From a virus: a stretch of 54,262 nucleotides of DNA. Where the stretch lies: positions 1 through 54,262 of the IMG/VR virus record IMGVR_UViG_3300009149_000003; one strand, written 5' to 3'. Made by a program: the position numbers and the translations under genes. This document shows positions 2,716 to 51,881 of this stretch, one piece after another (within the stretch, counting starts at the first letter, position 1; every line of letters begins with the position of its first letter). The notes under the pieces are model-generated. The model did no database searches, was not told the origin of the DNA, and was given only the letters and a program-made list of their open reading frames with translations.

Positions 2716-2894
2716 GATTTCTCCTCTACGTCGCCATCTTTGCCGTGTCCTGGGCGCTCGCAATCGGCATCGGCTGGTTGATCGGAACGGGGCTCGTCTG
2801 GCTCATCCGGCAGTGGGAACCCTCGGCGCTGGTGATCGCGGCGGTTGCGATAGCAATGGTGGCGGGCGCGTATTCACGGGCGAGGGATAGATGA
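2712..2894 (+). CDS. two-helix membrane protein
   Basis: A 60-residue protein from ATG 2712 (ATGA overlap). Two hydrophobic helices, about residues 2-30 and 36-54, are separated by RQWEPS and followed by a basic tail. No family is recognised. It overlaps the next gene by ATGA. Confidence 0.65.
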   Translation: MRFLLYVAIFAVSWALAIGIGWLIGTGLVWLIRQWEPSALVIAAVAIAMVAGAYSRARDR

Positions 2895-3634
2895 ACTGGC
2901 CCGGCGACATGCCTGAGACGGTGGTTGTCTCGTTCAGCGGCGGGAAGGACTCGACGGCGGCCCTCCTGTGGGTCCGTGAGCACATGCCGGAATTACCCTG
3001 CTACGTTGTCTGGGCTGACACGGGTTGGGAGCATCCGGGGCTTGAAGCGTGGAATCGGGCGATAATGGGACAACTCGGATACAAACTGACGGTGGTGCGA
3101 AGCATATACACATTTGCAAATCTGGTGAAGAATCGCAAATGGTTCCCGAGTGCATCGTGCCGTCTCTGTACGGCTCGCCTGAAACAGGAACCGATTGAGA
3201 AGTTCATCAGGTCTTTACCGGCAGATTCCATCATTCACGTTTCCGGCCTTCGGGCAGATGAGAGCCGAATACGGGCCGGACGGGCACCGTGGGGCATTAA
3301 CTACCGTCTGACCAATGGCAGGCGCACGGTATACGAATTTCTGCCGATCCATAACTGGACTGCCGAACAGGTGCGGGGGTACATCCGGGCGCACAGCCTT
3401 CCACTCCACCCGGTATACGGCCACCTTTCCCGCTTATCCTGCCGCCTATGCATCTTCCAGACCCGCCGGGAAATAGAAGCCATCGAACATTATGACCCCG
3501 AAGCCATCGAAATCATAGAGAGCCTTGAGGAAGAAATCGGGCGCACAATGTCGCCGCTCCAATACCCTATCAGATCGCTCATAAGGGCGAGACAGGCGCA
3601 GACGAAACTCGAACTCTTCCCGGCAGGAGCATGA
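2891..3634 (+). CDS. PAPS-reductase/DndC-like ATP-pyrophosphatase family protein
   Basis: A 247-residue protein. SGGKDS at residues 16-21 is the nucleotide-binding PP-motif of the PAPS reductase and N-type ATP pyrophosphatase family. DTGWEHPG follows at 43-50. Two Cys pairs (C90/C93 and C184/C187) are placed as in DndC-like members, where cysteines hold an Fe-S cluster. Such genes are common in phages and the substrate is unknown. A role in sulfur-based nucleic-acid modification is possible, but no dnd partner genes are seen. Confidence 0.8.
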   Translation: MNWPGDMPETVVVSFSGGKDSTAALLWVREHMPELPCYVVWADTGWEHPGLEAWNRAIMGQLGYKLTVVRSIYTFANLVKNRKWFPSASCRLCTARLKQEPIEKFIRSLPADSIIHVSGLRADESRIRAGRAPWGINYRLTNGRRTVYEFLPIHNWTAEQVRGYIRAHSLPLHPVYGHLSRLSCRLCIFQTRREIEAIEHYDPEAIEIIESLEEEIGRTMSPLQYPIRSLIRARQAQTKLELFPAGA

Positions 3635-6251: not shown

Positions 6252-6631
6252 TGGCAAAAATGGGACGACCTAAGATAGAGATCGATTACGTCCTCCTCGA
6301 ACGGCTCTGTACCATCCAATGTACCGATGCCGAGATAGCAGCGTGCCTAAAGATATCGGAACAGACACTTGACAATCGGAAGCGCGATGACCCCACATTT
6401 TTGAGCATCTATAAAACGGCTAAGGATGGGGGCAAGATGTCTCTCCGTCGCGAGATGTACGCGAAGGCGAAAGGCGGCAATGTGACCATGATGATCTGGT
6501 TGTCGAAGCAGTACCTCGGCATGGCCGATAAGACGGACTCGAACGTCAACATGCGTATCAATTCCTGGGACGACCTCGAAAGGGAAGTGGGTGCCGAGAA
6601 ACAGCAGGGGCAAGCCGACGATGGGGCGTAA
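6251..6631 (+). CDS. terS: terminase small subunit
   Basis: A 126-residue protein starting at ATG 6251 (TGATG). An N-terminal HTH (CTDAEIAACLKISEQTLDNR) is followed by DDPTFLSIYKTAKDGG, the usual plan of DNA-recognising small terminase subunits. MIWLSKQYLGMADK then gives the oligomerisation helix and the GM-x-DK signature seen in many TerS proteins. It lies immediately before the large subunit. Confidence 0.85.
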   Translation: MAKMGRPKIEIDYVLLERLCTIQCTDAEIAACLKISEQTLDNRKRDDPTFLSIYKTAKDGGKMSLRREMYAKAKGGNVTMMIWLSKQYLGMADKTDSNVNMRINSWDDLEREVGAEKQQGQADDGA

Positions 6632-8210
6632 CCATGCGATACTCTATCTGCTCATGGCGGCGGTCATGGTAAGCGCGGGCCGGCCGGTTGTGTCGAGCGA
6701 GATGCGCGAGATATGGCGCCGTTCGCATGCCGACTGGTGCTACTTCGCCGAGAAGATACTGAACGTCAACCTCGACAGCGATCAGCAACGCATCGTCCGG
6801 GCCGTCCAACACGAACCCCGCGTCTCCGTCCGGTCGGGCAATGCCCGCGGCAAAGACTTCATCGCCGCCGTCGTGTCGAACTGCTGGTTGCATCTGTACC
6901 GCCCATCGAAGGTCGTCAGTACGGCGCCGACCGGCCGTCAGGTTGAATCGATTATGATGACCGAGATCGCCCGCATCCGGAAGGGAGCCCGCGTTCCTCT
7001 CGGCGGTCGCCCGCTGGTGAACGGCATCAAGTTCGACGACGAGCCCGACAGGTTCCTGATCGCGTTCAAGGCCGCCGATACGGAAGACGAGACCTGGACG
7101 GGGTTCCACTCGCCGAACCTCATGGTCGTCGTGACCGAGGCATCCGGCGTCAATGACCGCACGTTCGACAATATCGAGAAAATCCTGCCCGGCAATTCAC
7201 GCCTCCTGATAGTGTTCAATGCCATCCGCGCCAGCGGTGAGGCGTTTCGAAGCATCAAGGATCCCCGGTACACGTCCTTCCGGTTAAATTGCCTGGACGC
7301 GCCGAATGTCAAGGCGCGGCGCATACTCATCCCCGGGCAAGTCGATTGGGAATGGGTGAACGGCCTGATCCACAAGCCGGGCATGGTGACGGCGATCGAA
7401 CCCGATGAAGCACGGGCGGACCTGTACGATTTCGAGTGGGAAGGGCAATGGTACCGCCCCGGTGACTTGTTCCTCGTGATGGTGATAGGGGAGCCGCCGC
7501 GGGAGCAGGAGAACCAGCTGATCCCCTACGCATGGACGCAACTCGCGATTGCCCGCTGGCATGAGCGCAAGGGGACACCGGCCGAGGGTGCGCCGCTCTC
7601 GCTTGGTGTGGATGTGGCCGGCATGGGAGCCGACAGAACGTCGTTTACGTACCGCTACGAGACGCTGGTGCAGAAGATACAGCGATACGCCAAGTCCGAT
7701 CACATGGTGACCGTCGGGAAGATCGTGAACATCCTGAACGCGAATCCGGGCAGCCATGCCTTCATCGACACGATCGGCGAGGGGGCCGGTGTTTACAGCC
7801 GGCTTGCCGAACTTGAGGCATCCGGGGCCATCCCGAAGGGTTCGGTCACCAGCGCGAAGGGGTCTAACAGCGCACGGGGCAAGCGAGACTTCACGGGGCT
7901 GCGGACGTTCGCCAACATGCGGGCGTACTGCCATTGGGCGATTCGGGATGCGCTCGATCCCTCGTTCGACAGCCACCGGGAACCGCTCGCCCTGCCGCCC
8001 GACGACGACCTGGTACAGGAGTTGTGTGAGATTCATTGGGACCCGAAGAGCAACGGGGACATCCTCATCGAGGACAAGGACGATATCAAGAAGCGGCTGG
8101 GGCGGTCGCCGGACGACTCGGACAGCCTCGGGGAATCGTACTTCCCGCCGATGAGACAGCGGCAGGTGACAGGCACATTTGACCGGCGGCTCTTGGGGCT
8201 GCCGGTGTGA
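6621..8210 (+). CDS. terL: terminase large subunit
   Basis: A 529-residue protein if it starts at ATG 6621; a start at 6591 would add ten residues deep inside terS. The ATPase domain has a Walker A-like SGNARGKD (residues 72-79) and a Walker B LMVVVTEA (167-174). The nuclease domain has LGVDVAGMGADRT (D331) and FIDTIGEGAG (D383). It is the packaging motor that translocates and cuts DNA at the portal. It overlaps terS by 11 bp, which supports coupling. Confidence 0.93.
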   Translation: MGRNHAILYLLMAAVMVSAGRPVVSSEMREIWRRSHADWCYFAEKILNVNLDSDQQRIVRAVQHEPRVSVRSGNARGKDFIAAVVSNCWLHLYRPSKVVSTAPTGRQVESIMMTEIARIRKGARVPLGGRPLVNGIKFDDEPDRFLIAFKAADTEDETWTGFHSPNLMVVVTEASGVNDRTFDNIEKILPGNSRLLIVFNAIRASGEAFRSIKDPRYTSFRLNCLDAPNVKARRILIPGQVDWEWVNGLIHKPGMVTAIEPDEARADLYDFEWEGQWYRPGDLFLVMVIGEPPREQENQLIPYAWTQLAIARWHERKGTPAEGAPLSLGVDVAGMGADRTSFTYRYETLVQKIQRYAKSDHMVTVGKIVNILNANPGSHAFIDTIGEGAGVYSRLAELEASGAIPKGSVTSAKGSNSARGKRDFTGLRTFANMRAYCHWAIRDALDPSFDSHREPLALPPDDDLVQELCEIHWDPKSNGDILIEDKDDIKKRLGRSPDDSDSLGESYFPPMRQRQVTGTFDRRLLGLPV

Positions 8211-14690: not shown

Positions 14691-14918
14691 ATGAAACTTT
14701 TTATAGTACTCGCTAAAGAATATGATTCGCAGAATGGCGTAGATCATATTGTAGGTGCCTTTGAGGATGAAGAAATGGCGCAAAAGATAGCGGACGAATT
14801 GACTGCTGAATGGGATAAACGTAAATGCGATAGATGGTGCTATTCATTCAAAGTACTCACCGTCGATGATATTAACGTGCAGTATATCCACTCCACCAAA
14901 GAAGTATATCCAGATTGA
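14691..14918 (+). CDS. hypothetical protein
   Basis: A 75-residue protein from ATG 14691, chosen because AGGAAAGGGGAGAG precedes it. The mixed alpha/beta pattern (MKLFIVLAKEYDSQ, then EMAQKIADELTAEW) suggests a small compact fold. AT-rich, like its upstream neighbour. No family is recognised. Confidence 0.6.
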   Translation: MKLFIVLAKEYDSQNGVDHIVGAFEDEEMAQKIADELTAEWDKRKCDRWCYSFKVLTVDDINVQYIHSTKEVYPD

Positions 14919-24887: not shown

Positions 24888-25199
24888 ATGACGATACTCG
24901 AAGCACTCCAGGCGATGTTGGAGTACGAGAACGACAACCTGCTGGCGAAAGCGTTGACGGATAACGGAGCAACCAGCACGGCGACGTACACGTCGGCGGA
25001 TGAACGAGCGGTCGATCTGGCCGCGGCCGACATCTATCTCGTGCTCTGCAGTCATCCCGAATTCAGGGAGGGCTCGAAGTACGTGAATTACGCCAAAGGT
25101 GCGCTCATGTCGCTGGCAAGGGAACTGATGCGGAAGCATGGGGTCCTGCCGACGACAATCGGCGCACCGGTGGACTCAAGTTACCAGAAAATATGGTGA
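24888..25199 (+). CDS. head-tail connector (adaptor) protein
   Basis: A 103-residue helical protein three bases after the capsid gene. ADERAVDLAAADIYLVLCSH and YAKGALMSLARELMRKHG give the helical bundle of gp6/gp15-type adaptors that bind the portal. The assignment rests on order and helical character. Confidence 0.65.
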   Translation: MTILEALQAMLEYENDNLLAKALTDNGATSTATYTSADERAVDLAAADIYLVLCSHPEFREGSKYVNYAKGALMSLARELMRKHGVLPTTIGAPVDSSYQKIW

Positions 25200-25204
25200 G
25201 GCGG

Positions 25205-27104: not shown

Positions 27105-27796
27105 ATGGATGAGATACTCACCAAGGCCAAACCTGATATCGCCCCCGATATCGTGCGGACGATCCTCCAGGATGGCGTCGATTTCGAGGTGACAGCGGGA
27201 CTCGGCACGCTCTTGCGGCGCCTGAAACTCACCCCGGCGAGCCGCACGTTCATCATCTACCCGATCAACCTCGGCACCCTGTTCAACATCTCGAAGGTCA
27301 TCCTCACCATGACGGAGATCGAATCTCTCGAAGGCGAGGATCTATTCGCCGTCGGGATACGGAATATCACCGAGAACAAGGACAAGATGCTTGAGGTCGT
27401 GGCGCTCGCGATCCTGAACCGGCGGATATCGACGCCTTGGGTGCGGCTCCGGAAGTGGATGCTCAAGCGATATCTCGACGCCAACCTTGACCCGCGCGAA
27501 CTGCTGAAATTGGCGAGTCTCGTCATAGCGCAGATGGACGTGACCGATTTTTTGGCGTCTTTCGTCTCGATCAAGCGACTAAATCTGGTCGAGGCGAAGC
27601 GGGTGGCAACGGTCTCGTAAATTATTGGGAGATTATCGGCGGCCTCGTGAAGTATTTCAGGTTCACGGTGTACGACATTATGTGGAAGTATTCATGGAAG
27701 AATCTGACGATGTACATGCTGTCGATACCAAAATATGAACCGGGACACGAAGGCCGCGAGATAGAGGACATATCCGAATTGGGGGACCTGCTGTGA
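27105..27796 (+). CDS. tail assembly chaperone, G and G-T forms by -1 frameshift
   Basis: The zero frame (27105-27620) gives 171 residues. At 27548-27554 the heptamer T TTT TTG lies in the zero frame. Slipping by -1 there joins residue 150 to an 80-residue extension ending at TGA 27794-27796, for a 230-residue product. The extension starts GVFRLDQATKSGRGEAGGNG and continues with aromatic helices (NYWEIIGGLVKYFRFTVYDI). This is the lambda G/GT arrangement of proteins that guide tail tube and tape-measure assembly. Its stop overlaps the GTG start of the next gene. Confidence 0.85.
27548..27554 (+). promoter_or_regulatory. -1 slippery heptamer
   Basis: T TTT TTG fits the X-XXY-YYZ rule in the zero frame of the chaperone gene. 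It is followed by a -1 frame open for 80 codons. Confidence 0.8.
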
Positions 27797-28986
27797 CGAT
27801 AGACGAGAATGTGAAATTGAGTATCTGCATGATCGTGAAGGATGAGGAGGCGAACCTGAAACGCTGCCTCGATTCCTTCCTGCCGATCATTCACGAACCG
27901 TGGTGCGAATTGGTGATCGTCGATACGGGGAGCACCGACAGGACTGTCGAGGTCGCCCGCGGATACACCGACAAGGTATTCGAGCAGACATTCATCCCCT
28001 GGGACTTCTCCGCCGCCAGGAATTACGGCATCGAGCGGGCGGTCGGTCGGCGCATCATGATCGTGGATGCCGACGAGGAACTCGACCAGAAGAGTTTGTA
28101 CCTCCTCGAAGACGCCTTGCTCAACCCCCGGTACGACGGCATCAAGACCCTGTTTGTCAAGCTCCGGAACTTCTATACGATTCAAACGAACGAGTTCGCC
28201 GAGGTCATCCAGGCCCGGATATTCGAGAATACCGGCGGCCCACTGTACCAGTTCTCCATCCACAACCGGCCCCGCGTTGACGCGCCGTATATGTTCCTCG
28301 ACAAGGTGATCTTCAATCACTACGGGTATGTGTTCCAGAAAACCGACCTGTTCCTGCAGAAAAAAGAACGGTCGCTGCCGATGCTCGAAGCCGAATACAC
28401 GAAGAATCCGGACGATCTGCACATCCTGACGCATATCATCAAGACCTACTACGCCTGCGGGGACCATGAGCAGGTTGTGGCAAAGGGCGAGCGGTGGATC
28501 GAACTCATGCGGGGCGTGGACTTTCACGACGGGTGGTTCGCGTACCTGGAAGTGTTCGCGAACATCCTCGGCTCGTATGTCCAGCTTCGGGACGGCGAGA
28601 ACGCGGAACGGGTGTTGGCTGAGGCCCTGAAGTACACGAACAAACTGATTTCCCTCTACATGTTGCTCGGGCAGTTTTACCTCGATGCGAAGAACGTTGA
28701 GCGGGCGCGGGAACTGTTCGAGGAGGCGTATCTGATCTACAATCAGGATAGCGACCCCTATGAGTTGCTCTGCTCGACGAATTCGGCGTTTATCATGCCA
28801 GGAATACTGAACTACTTGTCGATACTTGAGTTCGCGGATGGCAACTACGACAAAGCCGGGAAATATGTCAACGAGGGCATACGGTTGAATGAGAACCGGT
28901 TACCGCTCCGGTGGGACGTGTGGAATGAAGGTTTCGCGCACGGGCGGCTGATCAAGAACGAGAATATGCGGAAAAGGGCCGGGTGA
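27793..28986 (+). CDS. GT2 glycosyltransferase with TPR-like repeats
   Basis: A 397-residue protein with a GTG start at 27793, overlapping the stop of the frameshifted chaperone product. LSICMIVKDEEANLKRCLDS (residues 9-28), VDTGSTDRT (43-51) and IVDADEEL (90-97) are GT2 donor and metal motifs of the type found in glycosyltransferases that modify proteins. From about residue 205 helical pairs (LHILTHIIKTYYACGD, KNVERARELFEEAYLIY) look like tetratricopeptide repeats that could hold a protein acceptor. Its place between tail chaperone and tape measure is unusual. Confidence 0.85.
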   Translation: MTIDENVKLSICMIVKDEEANLKRCLDSFLPIIHEPWCELVIVDTGSTDRTVEVARGYTDKVFEQTFIPWDFSAARNYGIERAVGRRIMIVDADEELDQKSLYLLEDALLNPRYDGIKTLFVKLRNFYTIQTNEFAEVIQARIFENTGGPLYQFSIHNRPRVDAPYMFLDKVIFNHYGYVFQKTDLFLQKKERSLPMLEAEYTKNPDDLHILTHIIKTYYACGDHEQVVAKGERWIELMRGVDFHDGWFAYLEVFANILGSYVQLRDGENAERVLAEALKYTNKLISLYMLLGQFYLDAKNVERARELFEEAYLIYNQDSDPYELLCSTNSAFIMPGILNYLSILEFADGNYDKAGKYVNEGIRLNENRLPLRWDVWNEGFAHGRLIKNENMRKRAG

Positions 28987-43039: not shown

Positions 43040-44053
43040 TTATGGCACAAACGGCAAATTTATGCACGGAGTTGCACTATTTTGCGGGTGAGTATATCGC
43101 TCGGTCATTCTGAGCGAGGCGTGGTCTACGGCCGCCTGGACCGCCAATGGGGATGCCCCGGCTTCGAGGGCCATTGTGATGTAGGTATGCCGGAGACTGT
43201 GCAGGTGGTAAGACGCCGACAATCCCGCGCGTTCGCGCGCCACCTTGAAATATCTGGACAGTGACGTGGCGTTGCGGACATGAAACGGGAACCGACCGGG
43301 CAGTGACAAGAAGTGGTTGAAATCATCCATCACCTGCGATGGAATCGAATGCCAACTTTTCGGCCTGTCCCGATGCTTGATGTTCTGAGGCCTGTATTGG
43401 CGTTGGTCCAGGTCCACGTCGGAGCGTTCCAAGCCGACGATCTCGGATACCCGCCGTCCCGTGAATAGCAGAATCCTGCATAGACGTTTGCTGTCGGTAT
43501 CAGGCATGGCCGCGAACAAGGCGCGAAGTTGATCCGGCGTGAGTACTGCGGGACCGGGATCGGGAAACCGCAACCGGCCGCATCGCATGAACGGGTTGAC
43601 CTCTATCGTACCGTCGTCGAACAACCGCTGGAAGATGGCGCGAAGGTAGTTCAATCGGTTATTGACAGTGGCGGGGGCGATTCCACGGGCAAGTTCCCGC
43701 TGCTGGTACGCCGCGACATGCGGACGCCGAGCGATATCCCTCACCGGGTAGGACGCTCCGAGCATATCAATCATCACATTGAGAGCATCCATGTATCGCT
43801 CGATGGACGAGTCCCGCACGTTCTCACGGGCGAGACGGTCTGGTAATGTGTCGTGGAGCCATTCGAGCGATCCCGGGGCATCCTGGGGGCCTTCCTCGGC
43901 CAGCAGGTGACCGGCCATGATGTCATACGCCCGGTCCCGCGTGAAGTCAGCAATCGGGAGCTTGGTGGAGCCGCGGGACCGGAAGCCCGGTGCGGTGAGG
44001 TCATACTGCCAGCACGTAGAGTCGGGGCGGGATCGGATCGTCAGGCGGGGCAT
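43040..44053 (-). CDS. int: tyrosine recombinase integrase
   Basis: A 337-residue protein. The start is the ATG at 44053, overlapping the upstream gene's stop (ATGA); a 66-codon extension is rejected. A core-binding domain (about residues 65-155) precedes the catalytic domain with TGRRVSE (R201), HSLRH (H285 and R288), H311 and the nucleophile in MTERYTH (Y320). It integrates the phage at attP. A short N-terminal arm-binding domain is likely. Confidence 0.95.
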   Translation of the reverse strand: MPRLTIRSRPDSTCWQYDLTAPGFRSRGSTKLPIADFTRDRAYDIMAGHLLAEEGPQDAPGSLEWLHDTLPDRLARENVRDSSIERYMDALNVMIDMLGASYPVRDIARRPHVAAYQQRELARGIAPATVNNRLNYLRAIFQRLFDDGTIEVNPFMRCGRLRFPDPGPAVLTPDQLRALFAAMPDTDSKRLCRILLFTGRRVSEIVGLERSDVDLDQRQYRPQNIKHRDRPKSWHSIPSQVMDDFNHFLSLPGRFPFHVRNATSLSRYFKVARERAGLSASYHLHSLRHTYITMALEAGASPLAVQAAVDHASLRMTERYTHPQNSATPCINLPFVP

Positions 44054-44295
44054 CAAGTCTTTCCGGGCGCGTCGCCCTCTATGTCCCCGATGGCGAGGTA
44101 GATATCGATGAGGTCCTGCTCGGTCAACTTCTCGCCGGGCATGAGCGGGATCGCCGCAACCGCGCCGCAATACCGGCATGCCTGCGCCTCCTCGCGACCG
44201 GGGAAGAACCAGGTGTAGAGGAACGCCCTGTGACATTCCGTGCAACGGCAATAGCCGGTTATGATTCCGCCGACGATATGCTGCAAACCTGGCAT
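44053..44295 (-). CDS. zinc-ribbon protein in the integrase operon
   Basis: An 80-residue protein. YCRCTECHRAFLYTWF, then ACRYCGAV, supplies two Cys pairs of a zinc ribbon, followed by an acidic helical tail. It is coupled to int by ATGA. It could regulate excision or be a generic adaptor. Confidence 0.7.
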   Translation of the reverse strand: MPGLQHIVGGIITGYCRCTECHRAFLYTWFFPGREEAQACRYCGAVAAIPLMPGEKLTEQDLIDIYLAIGDIEGDAPGKT

Positions 44296-44828
44296 CAGGG
44301 AGTCCCGCCCATCTTGAATATTAGAATATCATTGCCACCGATAGTATCAGGTGCGGTGAAAATGCAAACCCCTTCGCTTATTCCAAACAGGTACATAATC
44401 ATAGTACCCATGGATACCATATCCATACTAACGAGTGATGTCCCGGAATATAACCAGAAATCGTATGTATAGTTCACACTGAATCGTTCATCCTCAATCA
44501 TAACAATAGCATATCCACCAGATATTGACATCTCAGAAGCCAATATCGTGTGTACCCATGATTCAATGACTCCCTCTCCCTGTTCTCCTTGCGGCCCGAT
44601 AGGACCCTGTTCCCCCTGGGTTCCCTGTTCGCCGGGTATGCCCTGCTCGCCTTGGGAACCGGTCGCACCCGTCTCCCCCTGGGAACCGGTAACCCCTTGG
44701 TCCCCCCGTTCCCCTTGAATGCCTTGGTCGCCCTGTTCGCCCGAATCGCCCTCAGGTCCCATCGGACCCTCAAGGCATCCAGCACAAAGCACCATCACAA
44801 TGAGAACCATATAACCAATATAGCGCAT
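44295..44828 (-). CDS. collagen-like lipoprotein
   Basis: A 177-residue protein from the ATG at 44828, with GAGGAGGGGG upstream. A short hydrophobic signal ([16 protein letters not shown]) ends in Cys18, a plausible lipid-attachment site although position -3 is not the usual Leu. About 20 Gly-x-y triplets follow ([16 protein letters not shown] and on), a collagen-like triple helix. A globular C-terminal domain of about 95 residues ends the protein. It would be displayed on the host surface from the integrase operon. Confidence 0.8.
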
Positions 44829-44920
44829 AACCCCCTCCTCAGAATACATGTTCGTCCTGCGCCGATCTTCTCTACTTACCCCTACGATGATAGGGAAATA
44901 TTAATTTATATATAGTGCAT

Positions 44921-46737: not shown

Positions 46738-46809
46738 CGGACAACATACTACCCGGCTGTGGCCGGACGTAATATAAGACGACGCGGGAAAACCGAAAGG
46801 GGTGGCGGT

Positions 46810-47067
46810 ATGAAATTACCGTTGAAATGGGATGATTCCGCATCATTTAGCGACCTCGCCGCCGTGAACGCGCACGACGCACTGGTGGCGGCATGTGAAG
46901 CGGCAATTCAATATGACAAGGCGATTAGACAATGCGCTGACGACCCTGATAAGATGGCATCATTTTGCACAGCAACGGGCGATGATTTGGATACGCTCTA
47001 TATGGACTGGATGGCAAAGGCCCGCGCCGCCCTTGAACTCGCCCGGAAGGAGGCCGACCGTGGCTGA
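46810..47067 (+). CDS. mosaic array gene 1, helical protein
   Basis: An 85-residue helical protein with GGGGTGGCGG before ATG 46810. It ends ARKEADRG then TGA, with the next gene's GTG start inside (GTGGCTGA). It is the first of five coupled genes that share interchangeable segments. Confidence 0.7.
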   Translation: MKLPLKWDDSASFSDLAAVNAHDALVAACEAAIQYDKAIRQCADDPDKMASFCTATGDDLDTLYMDWMAKARAALELARKEADRG

Positions 47068-47308
47068 GAATGAGCGGAATCGGGACCCACAACCTGGCGA
47101 CGATGATTACCAGGTGGACTCGCAGGAAGGTTACTACGAGCACGTCATCGCCCGCCTGAACGCCAAGGTCGAGCGGCTTACGCGAATCGAAACGGCGGCG
47201 CAGCGCGTTTGTGATAATCCAATATGGGCTGGTTATGGCGTAGGAGTCATCGAGGAAATGGACGATCTTCGCGCCGAACTCGCCCGGAAGGAGGCCGACC
47301 GTGGCTGA
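47060..47308 (+). CDS. mosaic array gene 2, coiled-coil protein
   Basis: An 82-residue protein with a GTG start in an 8-bp overlap; AAGGAGG sits just upstream. The part from residue 38, RLTRIETAAQRVCDNPIWAG, through ARKEADRG is almost identical to the end of array gene 4 (136 bp with three differences). The segment ARLNAKVERL is shared with gene 3. Confidence 0.75.
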   Translation: MAENERNRDPQPGDDDYQVDSQEGYYEHVIARLNAKVERLTRIETAAQRVCDNPIWAGYGVGVIEEMDDLRAELARKEADRG

Positions 47309-47917
47309 GCGAGCATCCGCAACTATGAGCGAAAAACGTGCCGTACTATGGGAGGATCGTTGGCAGAAAAGCGAGGAAGATGCTTTTAATTCCAAGCTGA
47401 AGGAACAAGAGGCTTTGGCCGAGAATGCCCGCCTGAACGCCAAGGTCGAGCGGCTGCGAGCCGAACTATTACACCTTGTCCGTCTTCTCGAACCAATGGA
47501 GCGCGATGGAACGCTCAACGTGCCTGGGCTGGCTACACTCAATGGTGCCCGCGCCGCCCTAGCCGTGAAGGAGGCCGAAAGTGGCTAACCATGCCGAGCA
47601 AGACCGGGAAATGCTTGAAGAATTGAAGAAATGGTATGACCGACCAATGAGCGCCATATCTACCGACAACGATGTGGGAGCTGTTGAGATTATCCGCGCC
47701 CACCTCGCGCCCGAACGGGCTGCATCACGGGAGATAACCCTTGTAGTAACTGCCGAGAATGCCCGCCTGACTACCGAGAACGAGCGGCTTACGCGAATCG
47801 AAACGGCGGCGCAGCGCGTTTGTGATAATCCAATATGGGCTGATTATGGCGTGGGAGTCATCGAGGAAATGGACGATCTTCGCGCCGAACTCGCCCGGAA
47901 GGAGGCCGCCCGTGGCT
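47171..47917 (+). repeat. direct repeats of the mosaic array
   Basis: Repeat A: 47171-47306 and 47782-47917 (136 bp, three differences). Repeat B lies at 47581-47657 and 47912-47988 (77 bp, three differences). Repeat C: 29 identical bases at 47150-47178 and 47428-47456. Their order differs between genes. Confidence 0.9.
47301..47588 (+). CDS. mosaic array gene 3, coiled-coil protein
   Basis: A 95-residue protein with a GTG start in the same junction sequence. A Glu/Lys-rich coiled coil (WQKSEEDAFNSKLKEQEALA) leads to ARLNAKVERLRAELLHLVRL; the 29-bp DNA coding ARLNAKVERL is identical in gene 2 (47150-47178 and 47428-47456). It ends KEAESG. Confidence 0.7.
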   Translation: MAERASATMSEKRAVLWEDRWQKSEEDAFNSKLKEQEALAENARLNAKVERLRAELLHLVRLLEPMERDGTLNVPGLATLNGARAALAVKEAESG

Positions 47918-47919
47918 AA
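47581..47919 (+). CDS. mosaic array gene 4, coiled-coil protein
   Basis: A 112-residue protein with a GTG start. Its first 25 residues (ANHAEQDREMLEELKKWYDR then PMSAI) recur in gene 5; its last 45 residues recur in gene 2. It is thus a chimera of two neighbours. The middle (EITLVVTAENARLTTENERL) is a leucine-zipper-like coiled coil. Confidence 0.75.
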   Translation: MANHAEQDREMLEELKKWYDRPMSAISTDNDVGAVEIIRAHLAPERAASREITLVVTAENARLTTENERLTRIETAAQRVCDNPIWADYGVGVIEEMDDLRAELARKEAARG

Positions 47920-48151
47920 CCATGCCGAGCAAGCCCGGGAAATGCTTGAAGAATTGAAGAAATGGCGTGACCGACCAATGAGCGCCATCGCGGGAAAGAA
48001 TGCTGAAATTGCCCGCCTGACCGCCGAGGTAGAGCGGCTGCGGGGTATACTCGAACACATTTGGGATTGGGATTATGACACTATGGGTAGTTCCATAGCC
48101 GATGTGCGAGGATTCGTTCGCGCCGCCCTCGCCGGGAAGGTGACGCCATGA
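47912..48151 (+). CDS. mosaic array gene 5, coiled-coil protein
   Basis: A 79-residue protein with a GTG start. The N-terminus ANHAEQAREMLEELKKWRDR matches gene 4. The zipper IARLTAEVERLRGILEHIWD resembles genes 2-4. It ends in an ATGA overlap with 48148. Confidence 0.75.
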   Translation: MANHAEQAREMLEELKKWRDRPMSAIAGKNAEIARLTAEVERLRGILEHIWDWDYDTMGSSIADVRGFVRAALAGKVTP

Positions 48152-49592: not shown

Positions 49593-50507
49593 GTGATTAC
49601 CGCAACCATTGAACGTCCGCGCCCTGCGTATCTATTGCCGGACCTCGCTGAACATCCGGCGCTGAACCGTCCGATCTACCGGTACGACCACGGCAATAAG
49701 CGGTGGTACTGCGCGGTGAACGGCGACGAACCGCAGTGGGCGGTATCCGTTACATCCCTCATCCATGCCACGCGCCCTACATCTGAACACCTGATGGCGT
49801 GGCGGGCCAACCTCGGCAACGACGGCTATCACCAGGTGCTTGCCGAAAAGTCCGCATACGGCACATGGATGCACATACTGTGGACCCGCGCCCTCATCAC
49901 CGGCAAATACACGCTGGACGAGGATTACCTGCGGGCGCAACTGCAAGATTGCCCCACCGGCCTTGAGAACGAGTGGGTTGATGCCGGACAATCTGATTTG
50001 CTGGCGTTGGCGGCATGGGCCGCTGAACGGCAACCGGAAGTTCTCGCCATCGAGCCGGTGATGCTTCATGCCATTAATGGCTGGTATGGCGGTGCCCTTG
50101 ACCTCGTATGTCGCCTGGACTGGAACCGGGTGCGAGTGGTCGCCATCGTGGATTTCAAGTCCGGGCGTAAGGGATTCTATGAGAACCATGAAATCCAACT
50201 CCACACCTATAAGGGCATCTGGAACTCGTACTTCGCGGGGACGGAGTACGAAGTCACGCACGTCTTCAATCTGGCTCCGAATGACTGGAAGACGAAGCCC
50301 GGATGTAAGTTCGTGAACCAGACCGACAAGGAAACGCGAGAGATCATCCCGCACATGCTCCAAATGTTTCTTGCCGACTCACAATGCAGACTGAAGCCGC
50401 CCGATGTGACCCGCTATCGCGGCACACACACGTTGGGCGAGCCGGTGGACGGCAAGGCGGAGACTATCACCCCGCTTGAAATCATCAAGGAAAGGATGGG
50501 GTTCTGA
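49593..50507 (+). CDS. RecB/Cas4-type PD-(D/E)XK exonuclease
   Basis: A 304-residue protein with a GTG start at 49593 preceded by AAGGAGG. H94 (GTWMH), GWYGGALDLV (D170), IVDFKSGR (D187, K189) and EIQLHTYKG (Q202) are the ordered motifs of RecB/Cas4-like nucleases. With the ssDNA-binding protein next door it probably resects DNA ends for phage recombination or replication. No annealase of the Beta or RecT type is recognised. Confidence 0.85.
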   Translation: MITATIERPRPAYLLPDLAEHPALNRPIYRYDHGNKRWYCAVNGDEPQWAVSVTSLIHATRPTSEHLMAWRANLGNDGYHQVLAEKSAYGTWMHILWTRALITGKYTLDEDYLRAQLQDCPTGLENEWVDAGQSDLLALAAWAAERQPEVLAIEPVMLHAINGWYGGALDLVCRLDWNRVRVVAIVDFKSGRKGFYENHEIQLHTYKGIWNSYFAGTEYEVTHVFNLAPNDWKTKPGCKFVNQTDKETREIIPHMLQMFLADSQCRLKPPDVTRYRGTHTLGEPVDGKAETITPLEIIKERMGF

Positions 50508-50508
50508 A

Positions 50509-51084
50509 ATGGCTGAAGCCAAGCACACACGCTATACGACGCCGGTTGGAATATTCCTGTTCCCCCGGTTGACTAGGCCGGACACGAAGTTCGACCCGGC
50601 GGGACGGTATTCCTGCAAGATCGCGGTGCCTGTTGAACAATCGAAGGAGTTGGTGGACCTCATTAATCTGGAGGTAGAAAAGCAAGCGAAAGAAAACCCC
50701 ATCAAAAAGGGCGACAAGATCGAGTATGCCAATCTGCCGCATGTCGAAGAAATTGTCGGTGGTGTGAAATGCTGCGTTTTCTACTGCAAACAGAAGGCCC
50801 GCGTCGAGTTGAAAGACGGCCATGTATTCGAGCCGAAAATCGCCCTATTCGATGCTCACAAAAGCGTTCTCGACCCCAACGAGATTGACCCTTGGACAGG
50901 AACCCAGGGGCGGCTGAACGTGGAACTGGTGCCGTACTCGGCGGCATTGACCGGCGTCGGCGTGACGTTGCGCCTCAAGGCGGCGCAGATACTCGAACTC
51001 GTCCAGGGAGGCGGCGGTAGTGCAGAGTCTTACGGGTTCGAAGCGGTAGTGCCCGAGGAATATGATGGCGAGTTGCCATTCTAA
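50509..51084 (+). CDS. gp2.5/DUF2815-like ssDNA-binding protein
   Basis: A 191-residue protein from ATG 50509, one base after the nuclease stop codon. YTTPVGIFLFPRLTRPDTKF, GRYSCKIAVPVEQSKELVDL and TGVGVTLRLKAAQILELVQG match the OB-fold of T7 gp2.5-like DUF2815 proteins. The C-terminus EEYDGELPF is acidic and ends in Phe, like SSB tails that recruit partners. It probably coats ssDNA made by the nuclease. Confidence 0.85.
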   Translation: MAEAKHTRYTTPVGIFLFPRLTRPDTKFDPAGRYSCKIAVPVEQSKELVDLINLEVEKQAKENPIKKGDKIEYANLPHVEEIVGGVKCCVFYCKQKARVELKDGHVFEPKIALFDAHKSVLDPNEIDPWTGTQGRLNVELVPYSAALTGVGVTLRLKAAQILELVQGGGGSAESYGFEAVVPEEYDGELPF

Positions 51085-51096
51085 GGAGGAACCCCA

Positions 51097-51345
51097 ATGG
51101 CATTACAGATATTCCGGTACGAGCAAGGGGACGCGGGAATTGTATTAACGGAAGAAGTAGGCGCACCCGAGTTCAAGTCGCAAGCGGCATTCCAGACGTA
51201 TGCCCGAAAGAATCCCGAGAAGTTCAGCGCCGGCAATTTCGTTCCCGTGAGAGTGGGCGATCCCGTTCATGTCGAGCCGGTAACACAGTACAAACTTTCG
51301 ATCCTTAAGGCCGCCCCGGCGACCAAACCGGTAGCCAAGGCATGA
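51097..51345 (+). CDS. hypothetical protein
   Basis: An 82-residue protein with AAGGAGGA before ATG 51097. Alpha/beta start (ALQIFRYEQGDAGIVLTEEV), then FQTYARKNPEKF. It follows the ssDNA-binding gene closely and may be a partner of it. No family is recognised. Confidence 0.6.
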   Translation: MALQIFRYEQGDAGIVLTEEVGAPEFKSQAAFQTYARKNPEKFSAGNFVPVRVGDPVHVEPVTQYKLSILKAAPATKPVAKA

Positions 51346-51349
51346 CATT

Positions 51350-51440
51350 GCGGCGGCGGGACGAGGGAGCGGGCCGAGACACCCGCACGAAGTGTGCCTC
51401 GTTTTCTCCCACACTTCATCCCCATCTCCCCCGCCGCCGC
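51350..51440 (+). ncRNA. pseudoknotted structured RNA, unknown class
   Basis: The 117-bp gap between two genes folds compactly. P1 is 11 perfect pairs (51350-51360 with 51430-51440). P2 is GCGGG/CCCGC (51369-51373 with 51382-51386). P3 is GAAGTGTG/CACACTTC (51389-51396 with 51410-51417). The P3 loop bases CCTCGT (51397-51402) pair perfectly with ACGAGG (51361-51366), directly after P1, which makes an H-type pseudoknot. Together this is 30 pairs in 91 bases. It matches no ribozyme or riboswitch I know. It lies 22 bases before ATG 51463. Confidence 0.7.
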
Positions 51441-51462
51441 TCACTGAAACGGAGACACGACC

Positions 51463-51717
51463 ATGAAACGCGAGAAACTGAGACGGGCAATAGAAATCGA
51501 CCTCGAACTCAAAAACCTCGAATCCGACCTCGAGTCTCTGAAGGAGGCGGCCGAGCGGGCATATCCCATGAATGCCTCACTGCAATTCCCAGAAGAAGAC
51601 AACGACCGAGAGATGGAATTGCTCACCGGCGATGATGCGGCTGCTGTACAGAAGGTATGGCATGACCGGGTGACAAAGCGCATCGCCGCCCTGGAAGCCG
51701 AACTGGAGACGCTGTAA
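51463..51717 (+). CDS. small coiled-coil protein
   Basis: An 84-residue protein with ACGGAGAC before ATG 51463. KREKLRRAIEIDLELKNLES, then DLESLKEAAERAYP, and a second helix (VWHDRVTKRIAALEAELETL) form a helical hairpin. It is enclosed by structured RNA leaders on both sides. Function unknown. Confidence 0.65.
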   Translation: MKREKLRRAIEIDLELKNLESDLESLKEAAERAYPMNASLQFPEEDNDREMELLTGDDAAAVQKVWHDRVTKRIAALEAELETL

Positions 51718-51881
51718 GACCCGGTAGACGCGCGGCGCGGGCGTGACCGGTCTGGTGGTCGATCCACCGCGCCGCAGCCGGGATAAAATTGACGTGTGCG
51801 GACCCTCAAGGGGGCGGCCTGACCAGCCCTTGTAAGACAGCTCGGGAAAGGTCGCCCCTCCGCCACTTAACGAGGCATGAC
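51718..51881 (+). promoter_or_regulatory. structured leader with alternative stems
   Basis: The 164-bp gap holds two structures. First, CCCGG/CCGGG (51720-51724 with 51778-51782) encloses a perfect 9-bp stem (51732-51740 with 51767-51775) and GACC/GGTC (51745-51748 with 51757-51760). Second, GGGGCGGCC (51811-51819) pairs with GGTCGCCCC (51850-51858). The same 51810-51812 bases can instead join CAAGGG/CCCTTG (51807-51812 with 51827-51832). The two folds exclude one another, as in a switch. Confidence 0.6.

Follow-up and report, generated by a model that had tools for sequence, protein, structure and literature searches.

A structured intercistronic RNA of no recognised class in the early operon of an uncultured temperate phage

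The spacer between two small orphan genes in the early operon of an uncultured phage is predicted to fold into a stable three-way junction of the helices P1, P2 and P3, which lies between the stop codon of an 82-aa gene and the ribosome-binding site of an 84-aa gene and leaves the CGGAG of the latter outside. Our tentatively favoured reading is an intercistronic mRNA structure that serves as a boundary to both translation and decay, to which a pseudoknot (PK) would add an optional tertiary contact. The interpretation reaches no further than a structured RNA of no recognised class.

The element and its genomic setting

The window analysed spans an entire virus record (54,262 bases) with the gene content of an uncultured temperate tailed phage: a terminase-like gene (6591-8207), a portal gene (10818), a major head protein gene (23775) and, on the minus strand, a tyrosine integrase (43043-44251). 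Short plus-strand genes follow one another from 45.5 kb, among them a recombination exonuclease and a Gp2.5-like ssDNA-binding protein (Ssb). Because the relatives of the exonuclease and those of the Ssb belong to different phage groups, the early region looks mosaic. The element is found just downstream of these two genes, in the spacer between the 82-aa and 84-aa genes, and the features of this region are as follows.

49593-50507, + strand: recombination exonuclease gene (phrog_298, E 6.2e-20; identity to relatives ≤38%)
50509-51084, + strand: Gp2.5-like ssDNA-binding/annealing protein (Ssb) gene (phrog_112, E 9.8e-21; identity to relatives ≤42%, mostly T7-like phages)
51097-51345, + strand: 82-aa orphan gene upstream of the element, with a strong Shine-Dalgarno sequence (SD; aaggagg)
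51350-51360, + strand: 5' arm of P1, the 11-bp closing stem, GCGGCGGCGGG; exact complement of 51430-51440, pair probabilities 0.87-0.98
51361-51366, + strand: 5' strand of PK, ACGAGG, flush against P1; exact complement of 51397-51402, overlapping a competing nested helix
51369-51386, + strand: P2 hairpin, 5 bp (51369-51373/51382-51386) with an 8-nt loop, in loop 1 of the possible H-type pseudoknot; pair probability 1.0
51389-51417, + strand: P3 hairpin, 8 bp (51389-51396, GAAGTGTG/51410-51417, CACACTTC) with a 13-nt loop; pair probability 0.98-1.0
51397-51402, + strand: 3' strand of PK, CCTCGT, six bases at the start of the P3 loop; no base between it and the P3 5' strand
51430-51440, + strand: 3' arm of P1, CCCGCCGCCGC
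51450-51454, + strand: CGGAG, presumed SD of the 84-aa gene; outside the helices of the element in the fold of 51300-51520
51463-51717, + strand: 84-aa orphan gene downstream of the element, with a good coding score; coiled-coil-like by eye

The initial annotation had placed four perfect helices in a 91-base non-coding gap. Direct reading and a script both recovered these helices as Watson-Crick paired without mismatch, with 11 bp in P1, 5 bp in P2, 8 bp in P3 and 6 bp in PK. The element does occupy 91 nt of non-coding spacer in a plus-strand operon; the gap itself is longer, at 117 nt (51346-51462). The element starts 4 nt past the stop codon of the 82-aa gene, and 9 nt separate its end from the CGGAG, which in turn stands 8 nt ahead of the AUG of the 84-aa gene at 51463. 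A coding function for the spacer was considered and rejected, as the 97-aa ORF from 51342 overlaps the 84-aa gene and the coding model favours the latter.

When the helices are read as an H-type pseudoknot, S1 is PK (6 bp), S2 is P3 (8 bp), loop 1 holds P2 and loop 3 is 7 nt. The junction between S2 and S1 contains no base, in agreement with the earlier claim of a zero-base junction between the P3 5' strand and the PK 3' strand. P1 encloses the whole arrangement and is flush with S1. This loop and junction geometry would be sterically reasonable.

Several other features of the phage were recorded. Tandem small genes at 46759-48151 have near-identical blocks in common (for example ERLTRIETAAQRVCDNPIWA.YGVGVIEEMDDLRAELARKEA.RG), which look like a recent duplication inside the early operon. 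Beside the integrase, a minus-strand ORF (44295-44849) combines a lipoprotein-like start with collagen-like Gly-X-Y repeats. The phage also carries PAPS-reductase-like and beta-1,4-glycosyltransferase-like genes (2891-3631 and 27793-28983), with further glycosyltransferase-like genes at 14866 and 17601.

Predicted fold and chance expectation

The minimum free energy (MFE) of the 91 nt was -49.1, and P1, P2 and P3 were robust in the folding models, with pair probabilities near 1. The MFE structure also contained a nested helix (51363-51367 with 51421-51426) that uses the same bases as the PK 5' strand and takes the nested energy from -44.4 down to -49.1. The isolated PK duplex was estimated at -7.8 kcal/mol including initiation, a value that stands outside the nested folding model, which gives no score to PK. 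Thus, of the pseudoknot proposed in the initial annotation, the pairing capacity stands, by exact complementarity, whereas its formation is contested by a helix competing for the same strand. The same holds when the element is compared with the three-stemmed H-type layout, in which two interleaved stems are combined with an embedded hairpin: the complementarity is present, and the nested helix competes for the same bases.

Among the gaps of the gene model up to 600 nt, the spacer containing the element was the most stable per base (-0.435 kcal/mol/nt), and its fold energy ranked 76 among 1,805 GC-corrected 120-nt windows of the phage. Of all windows of the phage, 25081-25200 had the strongest GC-corrected fold energy (z -3.68); it lies where a small gene ends, just downstream of the major head protein. 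Strong folding was also predicted for 51718-51881, the spacer that follows the 84-aa gene (MFE -75.9, z -2.0), in two domains and without an Rfam match. In its second domain, CAAGGG (51807-51812) is complementary to CCCUUG (51827-51832), which sits in the loop of the hairpin that comes next, and pairing of the two would give another possible, though sterically tight, pseudoknot.

The energy of the 91 nt corresponded to a z of -5.2 against dinucleotide shuffles, -3.8 when the two halves were shuffled separately and -3.0 when quarters were shuffled; a 121-nt stretch gave a z of -3.1. Shuffling by halves keeps the purine-rich and pyrimidine-rich parts apart and so retains the purine/pyrimidine skew, and in these shuffles a P1 of at least 11 bp arose in 0.05% of trials and the H-type pairing in 0.15%, the two never together. 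In Markov genomes, 8-bp hairpins whose loop pairs over 6 bp with a zero-base junction were found 0.195 times per simulated 54-kb strand, and this P3 and PK core inside an enclosing stem of at least 8 bp was found in 0 of 200 simulated genomes. With a relaxed descriptor, the element reached a summed stem length of 25, whereas 60 simulated genomes gave 21 at most. Among other phage loci, two places scored at least 25 in 5.3 Mb of strand (about 0.4 per Mb), and therefore about 0.04 would be expected for a genome of this size. The combination of 11 bp in P1, 8 bp in P3 and 6 bp in PK was absent from every simulation and from the other phage loci. Perfect 11-bp inverted repeats are ordinary when taken alone, with five in the window versus about two expected. 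Because the composite descriptor was written after the element had been seen, and was thus tailored to it, the rarity of the composite is suggestive, not overwhelming; the description of the four helices is accurate, and their combination is somewhat unusual.

Search for relatives

The initial annotation described the RNA as of no recognised class and proposed an Rfam scan, which bore this out: none of the 4,227 families, including the known ribozyme and riboswitch classes, reached the gathering cut-off on either strand of the whole window. At E≤10, the segment 51300-51500 gave only miRNA-type matches at chance level, far below the cut-off. The exclusion of hammerhead and HDV-like ribozymes in the initial annotation likewise holds, as these and the other Rfam classes gave no match and the order of the helices is unlike that of HDV.

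No relative of the 82-aa or 84-aa gene was found in IMG/VR, queries with the 183-aa neighbour and with the single Ssb were likewise fruitless in the hunt for homologues, and the exact PK/P3 pattern had 0 matches there. Profile searches of the same collection returned 80 loci for the exonuclease (identity ≤38%), mostly T7-like phages for the Ssb (identity ≤42%) and terminases with an identity of ≤53%. GenBank phages contained no relative by DNA search at distant settings, and none of the neighbour genes by tblastn. Structural proteins at about 50% are common to this phage and its closest counterparts, in which neither this Ssb nor an RNA match is present. We also searched with a structure model, R1, which detected no RNA relative in 84 loci, 50 whole phage records and 1,189 genomes from three bacterial phyla, and which could miss a diverged relative since it was built from one sequence, that of the element. 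Its sole match (28.7 bits, 59 nt) had an E of 0.0039 for one genome, which is chance level over 395 genomes. There was no second copy of the element in its own genome. The searched collections therefore hold no detectable homologue of the RNA or of either orphan flank, an absence that applies to those collections and not to nature at large.

Possible roles and comparison with known systems

As a structured intercistronic segment of an early polycistronic mRNA, the element would fold as P1-P2-P3 on transcription, and the G-rich strand after P1 would either join the P3 loop, forming the pseudoknot, or extend P1 as the nested helix. Intercistronic hairpins in other phage early operons act as boundaries for decay or processing. 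Here, the boundary may bar terminating or scanning ribosomes from continuing into the 84-aa gene, which, we propose, would therefore start only from its own SD. The element may also slow 3'-to-5' decay, or supply a double-strand cleavage site that parts the exo-ssb-82aa message from the downstream one. Its position between the stop codon and the next SD, its stability, the shuffle tests and the lack of an Rfam class make this boundary role plausible, at somewhat less than an even chance. Against it, good folding is common to the GC-rich stretches of this phage, as the rank of the spacer among the GC-corrected windows indicates, and there is no sign of selection on the fold, because the element has no homologue. 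An intrinsic terminator was rejected, as P1 is followed by UCACUGAAAC, with no U tract directly after the GC stem; terminator-like matches on the plus strand occurred only at 51384-51397, around P3.

The main rival to the boundary reading, which we regard as doubtful, is that the spacer has no function: a GC-rich stretch of purines followed by pyrimidines, with triplet-repeat arms (GCGGCGGCGGG/CCCGCCGCCGC), would fold by composition, and the pseudoknot would be a coincidence selected by the reader. The ordinary frequency of 11-bp inverted repeats here, the weakening of z from -5.2 to -3.0 when more of the local composition is retained, the occurrence of comparable composite scores in other phage DNA and the absence of a homologue are all consistent with this explanation, whereas the three stem lengths occurred together in no simulation and in none of the other loci, and half-shuffles never produced P1 and the H-type pairing at once. 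The inverted repeat, being symmetrical on both strands (R1 scores the minus strand too, at 18 bits), and the strong folds in both spacers around the 84-aa gene might instead point to an element acting as DNA, such as a cruciform, a recombination or replication site or a cassette boundary, with the second structured spacer (51718-51881) flanking the gene. We consider this improbable, given that neither direct repeats nor a target duplication were seen by eye around 51350-51440 and the genome has no second copy.

In a translational operator for the operon's own Gp2.5-like Ssb, by analogy with T4 gene 32, the protein would nucleate on the pseudoknot and spread over the SD of the 84-aa gene, an attractive reading because ssb lies in the same operon, two genes upstream. 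T4 and RB69 have Ssb operators in which a pseudoknot stands 5' of the SD; in T4 it measures about 28 nt, lies ahead of the Ssb gene itself and leads into a less structured tract of more than 40 nt with UUAAA/UAAA repeats covering the SD (PMC535899). The element, however, comes after ssb and before the 84-aa gene, and the 22 nt downstream of it (51441-51462, UCACUGAAACGGAGACACGACC) contain no UUAAA or UAAA repeats and no unstructured tract of more than 40 nt, so that it lacks two defining features of a T4 gene 32-type operator. To our knowledge, moreover, T4 gp32 and Gp2.5 are different families, and we rate an Ssb operator as quite improbable. It is highly unlikely that the element belongs to an undescribed class of ligand-binding riboswitches or self-cleaving ribozymes. 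Fluoride and preQ1-II riboswitches use three-stemmed H-type pseudoknots (PMC11262651), for which the element has the complementarity, and a strand with two competing partners could act as a switch, but the element has neither an Rfam match nor relatives with a conserved core, its helices do not sequester the SD, and the downstream gene is a small orphan without a metabolic theme. A trans-acting small RNA, released from the operon by processing and directed at host messages or at others of the phage, is equally hard to credit; the compact fold with an exposed pyrimidine-rich loop would suit it, whereas a promoter-like match near the element and a U-rich terminator are lacking. The ribozyme and small RNA readings, both raised in the initial annotation beside a cis regulator of the 84-aa gene, and the riboswitch reading have no positive evidence. 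A type III toxin-antitoxin system was rejected by eye, there being no tandem pseudoknot repeats and no nuclease-like gene.

Structured spacers are frequent in phage early operons, and their roles are known only for a few model phages. There is a slim chance that the element is a lineage-specific, switchable mRNA element, in which the G-rich strand picks either the P3-loop pseudoknot or the extension of the closing stem, controls the orphan early gene and responds to ribosomes that terminate 4 nt upstream or to a protein, for example the Ssb of the operon. If true, a pseudoknot under protein or ribosome control would have few parallels outside T4-like phages. The element, a lone sequence for which no relatives were found, is so far indistinguishable from an ordinary mRNA boundary structure.

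HDV-like ribozymes are compact pseudoknotted RNAs of a length similar to that of the element and form a nested double pseudoknot, unlike the element, the closing stem of which lies outside the possible H-type pseudoknot, with no nested double pseudoknot and no Rfam match. In the fluoride and preQ1-II riboswitches and the coronavirus frameshift element, an H-type pseudoknot carries an additional embedded hairpin (PMC11262651), as it would in the element, which differs in that this hairpin occupies loop 1, an 11-bp stem encloses the whole and no Rfam model matches. The operators of T4 and RB69 gene 32 resemble the possible pseudoknot of the element as phage mRNA pseudoknots 5' of an SD in an operon encoding an ssDNA-binding protein, and differ in that the element is 91 nt, has an 11-bp enclosing stem, precedes an unrelated orphan gene and lacks UUAAA repeats. 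The RNase III sites of T7 exemplify the intercistronic processing and stability hairpins of phage early operons. Unlike these, the element is a branched three-way junction with a possible pseudoknot and is a candidate for cleavage only; like them, it is a stable predicted structure between two early genes, 3' of a stop codon and 5' of the next SD.
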